NCBI RefSeq assembly: GCF_963082495.1
Contig: NZ_CAUJAN010000005.1
Coordinates: 36,001-100,000, forward strand
Source of the DNA: Methanobrevibacter sp. V74
GTDB taxonomy: Archaea; Methanobacteriota; Methanobacteria; Methanobacteriales; Methanobacteriaceae
Length of the DNA: 64,000 nt
Reading direction: 5' to 3'
This document shows, piece by piece, positions 56,893 through 59,288 of the stretch. The notes beneath the pieces are model-generated. The model saw nothing but the letters and a program-made list of their open reading frames with translations. It made no database searches and had not been told where the DNA came from. The position numbers and the translations under genes were made by a program. Each line of letters starts with the position of its first letter. Position 1 is the stretch's first letter.

Positions 56893-57560
56893 AGATTAAT
56901 TTCTCTATTATTCTCTTTTTGTGCGACAAGCAATTATCTTTTAAATTTTGTTATACGGGCTCATTTTTTTTGAGAGTTTTATGTCAGTACAACTATTAAT
57001 ATATTGTTAACCTTGCTATATGGATTATTCTCACTTGAAACTGCATCACTGACAACAGTAGGGAATTGCATGATAGTTTAAATTCTAATCTAATCATTAC
57101 ACAGATATTGTCTTTATTTGAGATGATATTTGATTGATGGCGAGAGAAAGACTAGCATGGTTAATGTTAAATGAACTTATATAAGCATCGTTAAGAAAGT
57201 CGACAGACAAAAGGTGTTGGAAAAACTGTCGTTAATACACATAGGCCATACAGATTAAAAAGGAACATATATCGGTTATAGCCCATAGGCGTATTGATTT
57301 AATGGTAGAGGCTAAACTCAAGCTGTATCTGACAGAAGATGAACTTGGTAAGTCCAGAATTGCCCCATTTCTTTTTTTTTATGATGAGTAGGGTGGCTTT
57401 GAGGAAGTCTGATGTTCTTTTCTGGATAAAGGATTCTGAGAAAGCAAAAAGGCCAATTGGTCTAAAAACAGTGAAAAAATGATAAATAATAACTATGACG
57501 AATATGCTGATTTCAGAAGGTGCATAACACGAATGATAAAACAAAATGTATCTTTAAATG
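56893..57560. other. Degenerate region after the adhesin
   Basis: A weak stem (AGAGA...TCTCT) right after the adhesin stop could terminate it. The rest holds no intact gene. Between 57290 and 57560 short coding-like runs are seen on the plus strand (VEAKLKLYLTEDELGKSRI, then VALRKSDVLFWIKDSEKAK), interrupted by stops. They look like one decayed protein that I do not recognise. Base composition is slightly richer in G and C than the surroundings. Confidence 0.35.
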
Positions 57561-57589
57561 CGATTGAGGATTGGTTTAAGTAATGAAAA

Positions 57590-58000
57590 CTGGAAAATAA
57601 ATATAATTTTGATGTTCATTCTGCTGAACTATTCGGAAATTGTATATTATGAATATGATGGGCCAATATGTACTAAATGTGGAAGTTCAATGAACAGTAA
57701 TGGTTCATATCGAGTCAAACCTAATAAATGGGAGAGAATACGTAAAAAAAGAATATATTTGTCCAAATTGTAATAAAAACAAAAGTCACTAATCTAGAAA
57801 ATTTCATCAAAAGATATTCCACATTATACCCGTTTTATTTGTGATTTAGGATTTAATCATCAAAGATGCACTTTCCATGCAATGAAAAATCTAATGGACA
57901 AAATAATAAAGAAACATAAAGAATAAGAAAACTCAAAGAAGTATTATGTAATATTTGCAGAACAAACCAAATATTAAATGATGATTTCTACAAGGTTCAA
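57590..58000 (+). mobile_element. ISM1-like transposase remnant joined to an IS4/IS5 tail
   Basis: At 57590-57775 the plus strand reads NFDVHSAELFGNCI, then a zinc-ribbon EYDGPICTKCGSSMNSNGSYR and KEYICPNC, broken by frameshifts. Near 57845-57915 HQRCTFHAMKNLMDKII follows, the MULE-like catalytic region. This pattern fits the ISM1-type (ISNCY) transposase known from M. smithii (from memory, not checked). From about 57925 the frame RKLKEVLCNICRTNQI matches the tail of the IS4/IS5-type copies, ending with ATTTCTACAAGGTT at 57984-57997. It is therefore a patchwork of two dead elements. Confidence 0.6.
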
Positions 58001-58034: not shown

Positions 58035-58118
58035 TTTAGGTTTGCCTAAAAAATAGAAAGCTTTATATACTACTTAAGCAAAACTATAAAGTAGAGCTTA
58101 AATTTAGGTTTACCTAAA
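58035..58118 (+). promoter_or_regulatory. Promoter flanked by two metal-regulator-like palindromes
   Basis: Two palindromes, TTTAGGTTTGCCTAAA (58035-58050) and TTTAGGTTTACCTAAA (58103-58118), differ by one base in the spacer. Between them lies a TATA box, TTTATATA at 58062-58069. Transcription should start near 58090-58095, so one palindrome is upstream of the TATA box and the other just downstream of the start. The TTAGG-N4-CCTAA form resembles DtxR/IdeR/MntR operators; regulator and metal are inferred. No gene with a start codon follows before 58374. Confidence 0.6.
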
Positions 58119-58302
58119 TAACTCTCACATTATTAGTCAAATAATAATACTCTCCAAAATTAGAATGTGTTAAATTAGATTTCTCACAATTCTCTAATTT
58201 GATACAAGTCGTTAGGAAAATTTAAAAAAATCTGCCAAAATATAATTTTCCTCAATTCAAGGTGTTTAACATGTCGATTAAACACCTGTTATCTCTCTTT
58301 TT
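58092..58302 (+). ncRNA. Candidate structured RNA ending at a terminator
   Basis: The stretch downstream of the paired palindromes contains no open frame worth calling but has three possible hairpins. They are ATTATTA/TAATAAT (58131-58150), AAATTAGA/TCTAATTT (58172-58200) and a perfect 10-bp stem AGGTGTTTAA/TTAAACACCT (58260-58287). The last is followed by TTATCTCTCTTTTT, which looks like a terminator. A ~200-nt RNA under metal control, or a leader left after gene loss, would both fit. AT-richness makes the first hairpins weak evidence. Confidence 0.35.
58260..58302 (+). terminator. Strong stem-loop terminator upstream of trxB
   Basis: AGGTGTTTAA and TTAAACACCT form a perfect 10-bp stem with an 8-base loop, followed by a CTCTCTTTTT tract at 58293-58302. 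It separates the orphan promoter from trxB, whose own start follows 72 bases later. Confidence 0.6.
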
Positions 58303-58373: not shown

Positions 58374-59288
58374 ATGGAGAAATATGACATCATTATTATT
58401 GGAGCAGGTCCTGGCGGATTAACTGCAGGAATATATGCTGGTCGTCAAGGAACTAAAAACTTGATAATTGATAAAGATATGGCAGGCGGAATTGGTCGTG
58501 AAGTTCCTGAAATGGAAAATTACCCTGGTTTTGATAACATTTCAGGTTTAGAGTTAATAGAAAAAATGAAGGCACAAGCTATTAAAAACAATGAACTTCA
58601 TGAAATGGAAAATGTGGAAGAAATAACAAAAGATGATTCAGAATACCGCTTCACCGTTAAAACCGATAAAGACCAATATCAAACTAAATCTATTATATTG
58701 GCAACTGGAAGCTCCCGTAAGCAATTAAATGTAAAAGGTGAAGATGAATTTAAAGGAAAAGGTGTAAGCTATTGTGCAACCTGTGACGGATTCTTCTTTG
58801 CTGGAAGGGACATAATCATTGTAGGGGGCGGAAACAGCGCACTTCAAGAAGCAATTTACCTTAAAAATCTAGGAGCCAATGTTACAATCATTCACAGAGG
58901 AGATGAATTTAGAGCTCAGAAACAATTAAAGGATCAAATTAAAGAGTCAGGTATAAATTTTATCCTTAATGCAGTTGTAGAAGAAATCAAAGGTGATATT
59001 CTTGTTGAATCAGTTACTATAAAAGATACGCAAACCGGTGCGTTAATGAATCTTCCAACTAATGGAATATTTGTAAGCGTAGGTTATATTCCCCATACTG
59101 AACTTGCAGAACAACTAGATGTTCAACTAAATGAAACAGGACATATACTCACTGATAAAAATCAAAAAACTAATATTGACTATGTTTATGCTATTGGTGA
59201 TGTATGTGTTGGATTAAAACAATGGGTTGTTGCATGTGGTGAAGGTGCGGTTGCTGCAACTTCCGTGTTTCTAGACCTTCAAAATTAA
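58374..59288 (+). CDS. trxB: Thioredoxin reductase
   Basis: The 304-residue flavoprotein has an FAD-binding motif IIGAGPGGLTAGIYAGRQG at the start, the redox-active CATCDGFFFAG near residues 135-145, the pyridine-nucleotide motif IIVGGGNSALQEAIYL near 152-167, and YAIGDVC near 279-285. It reduces thioredoxin; in methanogens the donor may be F420H2 or NADPH. GAGGT precedes the ATG. Confidence 0.93.
   Translation: MEKYDIIIIGAGPGGLTAGIYAGRQGTKNLIIDKDMAGGIGREVPEMENYPGFDNISGLELIEKMKAQAIKNNELHEMENVEEITKDDSEYRFTVKTDKDQYQTKSIILATGSSRKQLNVKGEDEFKGKGVSYCATCDGFFFAGRDIIIVGGGNSALQEAIYLKNLGANVTIIHRGDEFRAQKQLKDQIKESGINFILNAVVEEIKGDILVESVTIKDTQTGALMNLPTNGIFVSVGYIPHTELAEQLDVQLNETGHILTDKNQKTNIDYVYAIGDVCVGLKQWVVACGEGAVAATSVFLDLQN

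Follow-up and report, generated by a model that had tools for sequence, protein, structure and literature searches.

The window analyzed here is a 64,000-nucleotide stretch of DNA from Methanobrevibacter sp. V74, and the locus of interest lies within it, ahead of a gene resembling thioredoxin reductase (Table 1). Two palindromes of the form TTTAGG-N4-CCTAAA, TTTAGGTTTGCCTAAA and TTTAGGTTTACCTAAA, flank the TATA box TTTATATA. Both are exact and have no other exact matches in the window; at up to two mismatches the window holds five, which is the chance level (shuffle mean, 5.4). Given the position of the TATA box, transcription would be expected to start at about 58090-58092, and the second palindrome would therefore lie just downstream, about 11-27 nt within the predicted transcript. 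A preliminary description of the locus had reported two near-identical operators flanking a TATA box, one upstream and one after the expected start, and this layout was found as described. It had also ended the unit with a 10-bp stem and a T tract; both are present, but the T tract sits about 10 nt past the stem of hairpin 4 and does not immediately adjoin it. The thioredoxin-reductase-like gene is on the same strand as the RNA and begins 72 bp downstream. On the other side, between an adhesin-like gene and the RNA, positions 56950-58000 contain broken frames that by eye resemble transposase remnants, and these leave the RNA gene undisturbed.

Table 1. Features of the studied locus (window positions) and covariance-model copies of the RNA in the same genome (contig positions)
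Feature	Position	Strand	Basis
Upstream operator, DtxR-box-like palindrome TTTAGG-N4-CCTAAA	58035..58050	.	exact sequence; conserved pair
TATA box TTTATATA	58062..58069	+	sequence
Transcription start, inferred	58090..58092	+	TATA spacing
Structured small RNA, predicted, about 211 nt	58092..58302	+	fold z -5.9; covariance-model matches
Downstream operator, in RNA 5' end, alternatively a hairpin	58103..58118	.	exact sequence; fold; conserved
Hairpin 1, loop GUCAAA	58129..58148	+	fold; covariation; loop unpaired 0.99
Linker CUCUCCAAAAUUA, mostly unpaired	58150..58162	+	conserved core bases; CUCUCCAAAA unpaired 0.82 on average
Hairpin 2, loop UUUCUCACAAUUC	58166..58206	+	fold; covariation; loop unpaired 0.97
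Hairpin 3, loop with strongly conserved AUCUGCCAA, candidate pairing site	58214..58252	+	fold; covariation; unpaired 0.99
Hairpin 4, terminal 10-bp stem	58260..58287	+	sequence; fold; covariation
T tract TTTTT, presumed 3' end	58298..58302	+	sequence; TCTCTTTTT-like ends in homologues
Thioredoxin-reductase-like gene, neighbor outside RNA unit	58374..59288	+	Pyr_redox_2 match
Own-genome copy at studied locus	C5:94125-94290		covariance model
Own-genome copy near feoB	C4:118301-118460		covariance model
Own-genome copy near cbiM	C4:126072-126232		covariance model

No ORF of at least 40 aa overlaps the interval, and the longest frame within the RNA has 13 codons and extends to the RNA 3' end, in agreement with the earlier statement that the interval holds no credible reading frame. 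Across 46 homologues, the longest closed frames averaged 14.9 aa, against 15.9 aa in shuffled sequence. On both grounds, a small-peptide gene was rejected. The RNA at 58092-58302 has a folding energy of -41.5 kcal/mol versus -23.4 +/- 3.1 kcal/mol for shuffled versions (z = -5.9), with 0 of 200 shuffles as good, and the predicted fold places four hairpins after the operator hairpin. Its loops are predicted to be unpaired at 0.97-0.99 and its linker at 0.82.

In a DNA search, 32 of 61 genomes (counting the host genome) had homologues; all are from the same genus, often with several copies each. A covariance model of 165 positions and 35 pairs, built from aligned elements, was then run across 138 genomes of the host's taxonomic family, giving matches in 62 of the 67 genomes of the window's genus and in none of the 71 others. 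These matches sum to at least 158, or 2.5 per positive genome, a lower bound because the filters were strict and 20 first-look candidates per genome were scored. Five genomes of the window's genus gave no match in this search, one of them 95% complete. When named genomes were scanned for the loop-2 pattern, 61 of the 65 stretches came from Methanobrevibacter, M. thaueri and M. millerae among them; the remaining four, from unrelated bacteria, are probably chance. At E values up to 5, an Rfam 15 scan yielded five matches, each scoring far under the gathering threshold, and no credible family. The locus is thus not the orphan that it had first been taken for, as it belongs to a conserved, multi-copy family.

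The host genome itself has three copies by the covariance model, and among the 30 loci fetched, copies sometimes stood in tandem arrays. Directly behind the cbiM-side copy, we observed an extra double-operator TATA promoter (L155:1235-990; G000 C4, minus strand, about 126,034-125,790). This heads a divergent RNA with several hairpins by eye and without a listed covariance-model match, possibly a second RNA type of the same regulon. Two type-II elements (L024:2117-2301 and L029:1788-1970) were also seen beside feoB in tandem with ordinary copies, with the same promoter layout and terminator and with differing loops. These two were omitted from the seed alignment (A1), as were the second, near-identical L024 copy and the insertion-bearing L016.

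Covariation was then assessed in alignment A4, which holds 46 copies in 45 distinct rows. Overall, 95.4% of cells were paired and 18 of 35 pairs showed double changes, counts that are biased towards the model because A4 was fitted to it. Not one of 500 shuffles matched any of the five measures, and sliding the pair partners lowered pairing to 38-51%. Hairpin 1 was the least uniform, with 80% of cells paired and double changes in four of its six modelled pairs. Paired cells reached 97.6% in hairpin 2 and 98.3% in hairpin 4 (A4), and all eight pairs of hairpin 3 were changed on both sides (A4). Early alignments mispaired hairpin 3, and a smaller seed set was taken for the model instead. RNAalifold, applied to a plain MAFFT alignment of 27 elements, recovered hairpins 2 and 4 (20 pairs, 5 double-changed), with hairpins 1 and 3 missing because MAFFT misaligned both. 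The conserved unpaired stretches lie around AGUCAA, CUCUCCAAAA, UUUUCxCACAAUUU, and AAUCUGCCAA, and they are suited to pairing, as looked for in an iron-sparing sRNA.

The promoter is conserved together with the RNA. Both operators, at up to two mismatches each, were found in 42 of the 44 copies with full upstream sequence (exact in 39), at a spacing of 67-72 bp; none of 880 mononucleotide shuffles of the upstream sequence gave such a pair (one duplicate row was merged in this test). The two copies not scored with both operators were L017 and L061, and L017 was missed, though both operators are present, because the model match ran into the second operator. Of 45 copies, 39 have a TATA match, offset by 26-28 from the upstream operator, and most of the 30 fetched loci have a TTTATATA-like box between the operators, ahead of the RNA. 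The palindrome search and the check for compensatory changes in relatives, both proposed in the preliminary description, therefore came out in its favor, and these sequence tests lend strong support to its suggestion of a metal-regulated small RNA. Collectively, it is very likely that the locus represents a genuine, conserved family of RNA genes preceded by DtxR-type operators, and its features point to a stand-alone non-coding gene with its own promoter and terminator.

To place these operators, we take TTAGG-N4-CCTAA to be the box consensus of the DtxR/IdeR/MDR1-type regulon. This palindrome stands at the promoter, and the genome encodes a DtxR-family protein, the product of a single gene near G000 C2:136797-137003 with Fe_dep_repress, Fe_dep_repr_C, and C-terminal FeoA domains. 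A one-mismatch operator lies upstream of this gene (G000 C2, L141:1963-1976), hinting at autoregulation. Genome-wide, there are 19 TTAGGNNNNCCTAA sites versus 8 for the reversed pattern; they include sites upstream of feoB, upstream of a rubrerythrin, and at the RNA copies, and several adjoin genes without an evident metal role. The rubrerythrin site (G000 C1:374168-374181; L032:1501-1514) precedes the first of two adjacent rubrerythrin genes (C1:374255 and 375306), and a likely iron-using protein may therefore be under direct repressor control.

Next, we considered the genes that neighbor the copies. Within 2 kb of a copy, feoB is found in L024, L029, L030, L058, and L154; it sits next to the copies of L024, L029, and L030, with tandem arrays in two of these three loci, and in L058 the distance is about 1.3 kb. 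Of 27 genomes checked, 11 have a rubrerythrin gene no more than 2 kb from a copy, a biased rate because these 27 of the 62 genomes were entered partly after the association had been noticed. All 19 rubrerythrin-RNA pairs are convergent, tail to tail, and for 10 of these 11 genomes a gap of 21-90 bp separates the closest rubrerythrin from the modelled RNA end. More generally, when the nearest downstream ORF of at least 90 aa was taken for each of 44 copies, 27 had a convergent one, 15 had one on the same strand, and 2 had none in the sequence examined (this count omits the second L024 copy and L055, which is in the same place as L005).

These neighborhoods bear on whether the RNA could act in cis on the gene downstream, as its leader or attenuator, or might be what the preliminary description had suggested, a leader left stranded by insertion-sequence debris. 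The same-strand thioredoxin-reductase-like gene a short distance downstream would suit a leader, and this order is repeated in L003 (G019) and L072 (G100). Most other copies, however, have a different gene downstream that is not thioredoxin-reductase-like, marker searches show differing neighbors, and a terminator-like hairpin stands ahead of the gene. Because the downstream gene is convergent more often than it is on the same strand, a general leader role is excluded, and there is no constant same-strand position upstream of one gene across copies. Stranding in particular is contradicted by the intact copies at many other loci, as well as by the two further cases upstream of a thioredoxin-reductase-like gene. 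We therefore regard a leader of either kind as highly improbable. Equally improbable is spread through the genus as a mobile or repetitive element that plays no part in metal control. Several copies per genome, tandem arrays, and restriction to one genus would be expected of such an element, whereas the compensatory changes, the fixed geometry of operators and TATA box, and the repeated occurrence beside feoB and rubrerythrin argue against it.

The identity of the metal was considered separately. DtxR/MntR proteins vary in metal choice, and the gene for the cobalt-uptake protein CbiM adjoins one copy, so the metal could be other than iron. Against a signal from manganese, nickel, or cobalt acting through the same DtxR-type protein, feoB carries an operator and neighbors several copies, rubrerythrin is associated with the RNA, and the regulator has a C-terminal FeoA domain. 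We infer iron, not manganese, from feoB, rubrerythrin, and the single DtxR-family protein, and consider another metal distinctly unlikely. In Methanococcus voltae, according to the accessible portion of the report, DtxR and FeoB increase together when a shortage of Fe(II) is apparently sensed (PMC8516115), which is also at odds with another metal.

Taken together, these data favor a DtxR-repressed, RyhB/IsrR-like, iron-sparing sRNA that acts by pairing, here in an archaeon, a reading to which we assign a probability of roughly 0.6. When iron is plentiful, a single DtxR-family repressor would occupy both operators and block the promoter; in iron shortage, the repressor would be released and an RNA of ~210 nt made. 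These two steps are drawn from the anatomy of iron-derepressed sRNAs and from the DtxR/FeoB response of M. voltae. The RNA would then use three conserved, unpaired stretches that contain C residues (CUCUCC, UCUCAC, and AUCUGCCAA) to pair with mRNAs of iron-rich proteins where translation begins, lowering the synthesis of these proteins in the manner of RyhB, FsrA, and IsrR in bacteria. In this way, the family probably aids the cell's iron rationing.

Candidate targets were scanned among 820 predicted genes sampled from about 0.8 Mb plus the window. Loop 3 is complementary to the AUGGCAGAU start of the rubrerythrin and hybrid-cluster protein genes. Ranked by energy, its best partner was a probably miscalled TTG start (-19.7 kcal/mol), followed by a second TTG start, which has a good ribosome-binding site and belongs to a gene outside any Pfam family (-16.7 kcal/mol), and by the rubrerythrin AUGGCAGAUUU (-16.5 kcal/mol; -17.7 kcal/mol with a longer loop). 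Next came two proteins that are membrane-type by eye (-15.0 and -14.8 kcal/mol) and the hybrid-cluster protein of the Prismane family (-14.6 kcal/mol), and the hydrogenase small subunit scored -13.2 kcal/mol. Two of the top three starts are not known iron genes. Across the 820 starts, the excess of loop-3 partners was not significant, as six starts reached -14 kcal/mol or lower and 30 of 100 shuffled loops did equally well or better. For the linker and loop 2, no clear advantage over reversed RNA was seen at starts. Most exact 10-mer complements of the loops in the own genome fell within genes or within the RNA sequence. One loop-3 complement of 10 nt, however, exactly takes in the TTG start ranked second above, which belongs to L175:403-1509 on the minus strand (G000 C3:139523-140629) and is a possible further target. 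A loop-2 complement just before the start codon of a fumarase-beta-like gene in one genome (L191, G034 C1:891177) was rejected as a target and treated as chance because it was not seen in 21 other start regions, read among 30 fetched loci, or in the own genome.

We also compared the starts of the two leading candidates across genomes. The hybrid-cluster protein start reads ATGGCAGA in 20 of the 30 genomes read from the genus versus 0 of the 19 read from other genera of the family, which lack model matches, a contrast that rests on few independent changes because the 30 starts come from the best-scoring, closest relatives, with divergent carriers such as G034 and G011 left out. For rubrerythrin, this start is retained by 31 of 39 genomes from the genus and also by 8 of 10 from g23, a genus without the RNA, so its conservation is not diagnostic. 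Between g23 and the window's genus (L352, L362, and L364), rubrerythrin is about 90-93% identical and the hybrid-cluster protein about 69%, and gene transfer between the genera is therefore possible. Genome-wide, 22 start-like ATGGCAGA sites versus 19 for the synonymous control ATGGCTGA gave no clear excess of iron proteins, in lists that contain some internal methionines and are annotated partly by eye. With no significant enrichment of targets, we therefore keep the targets as a hypothesis, with rubrerythrin and the hybrid-cluster protein as the best candidates.

The same data bear on a different mode of action, in which a metal-regulated RNA binds a protein, as a sponge or scaffold for, e.g., an Sm-like protein, and does not pair with mRNAs. 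The loops are strongly conserved, yet gave no significant target set, and tandem arrays would suit titration. On the other hand, there is no repeated, identical motif for a protein site, the loop sequences differ from each other, and the C-containing unpaired stretches resemble the pairing sites of bacterial iron RNAs. Binding of a protein thus seems unlikely, if somewhat less so than a signal from another metal.

For the preferred pairing sRNA, a more specific form can be proposed, with expected contact sites at the RNA stretch AUCUGCCA and the mRNA AUGGCAGAU. Pairing by the conserved loop AAAUCUGCCA would hide AUGGCAGAU in the mRNAs for rubrerythrin, the hybrid-cluster protein, and the hydrogenase small subunit, and perhaps also in that for heterodisulfide reductase; the latter two were named by eye. 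Masking of the start codons of these mRNAs by a DtxR-controlled, multi-copy RNA that arose independently of RyhB and IsrR, as the first archaeal iron-sparing sRNA, is a tentative proposal that we hold to be rather doubtful as a whole.

Several bacterial groups have iron-sparing RNAs, apparently with repeated origins, and the features of RyhB/PrrF and FsrA used for comparison here are partly general knowledge. As given in the accessible parts of PMC9410917, IsrR of Staphylococcus has two Fur boxes, one at the promoter and the other immediately past the start, is conserved genus-wide, and has three unpaired C-rich regions. The archaeal family is similar in its genus-wide conservation, its two repressor boxes with the second just past the start, and its several unpaired C-rich regions. 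It differs from IsrR, within that account, in its archaeal TATA promoter and its boxes, which are DtxR-type where those of IsrR are Fur-type, and also in its up to 5 model matches and tandem arrays per genome, its unrelated host, its lack of an Rfam match, and targets that are candidates only. RyhB/PrrF of Enterobacteria and Pseudomonas, in the same partial source, are likewise iron-repressed sRNA genes, duplicated in some species (PMC9410917); here, no homology to them was found in the Rfam scan, and the host is archaeal. FsrA of Bacillus subtilis also has a C-rich motif able to meet Shine-Dalgarno regions, as described in that portion of the source (PMC9410917), and differs in repressor type and host.

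Among archaea, sRNA162 and sRNA154 of Methanosarcina mazei are likewise methanogen sRNAs, but come from another genus and have no iron regulation described in the accessible passages of their reports (PMC3510493, PMC11549558). The methanogen DtxR/FeoAB circuit similarly brings together a DtxR-type repressor and feoB, but the available sections describe no RNA arm (PMC8516115). For M. smithii, antisense transcription has been reported, and no such RNA is named in the part of that report at hand (PMC4555090). Among the papers listed in searches of the open-licence literature on archaea, methanogens, and Methanobrevibacter with iron, DtxR, or sRNA, no archaeal iron-sparing RNA was found. On our best reading, and as far as these limited literature searches show, this would be the first archaeal iron-sparing sRNA. 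By anatomy, the family would fall in the RyhB/IsrR class, and what appears new is the archaeal host, the other type of repressor, and the absence of an Rfam relative.

An archaeal version under DtxR would extend the convergence of iron-sparing RNAs to another domain of life, and RNA regulation in archaea would become testable with a defined signal, promoter, and set of loops. The hosts are methane producers of the rumen and gut, and, if the start-masking proposal is true, the RNA would tie iron supply to the central redox enzymes of gut methanogens.
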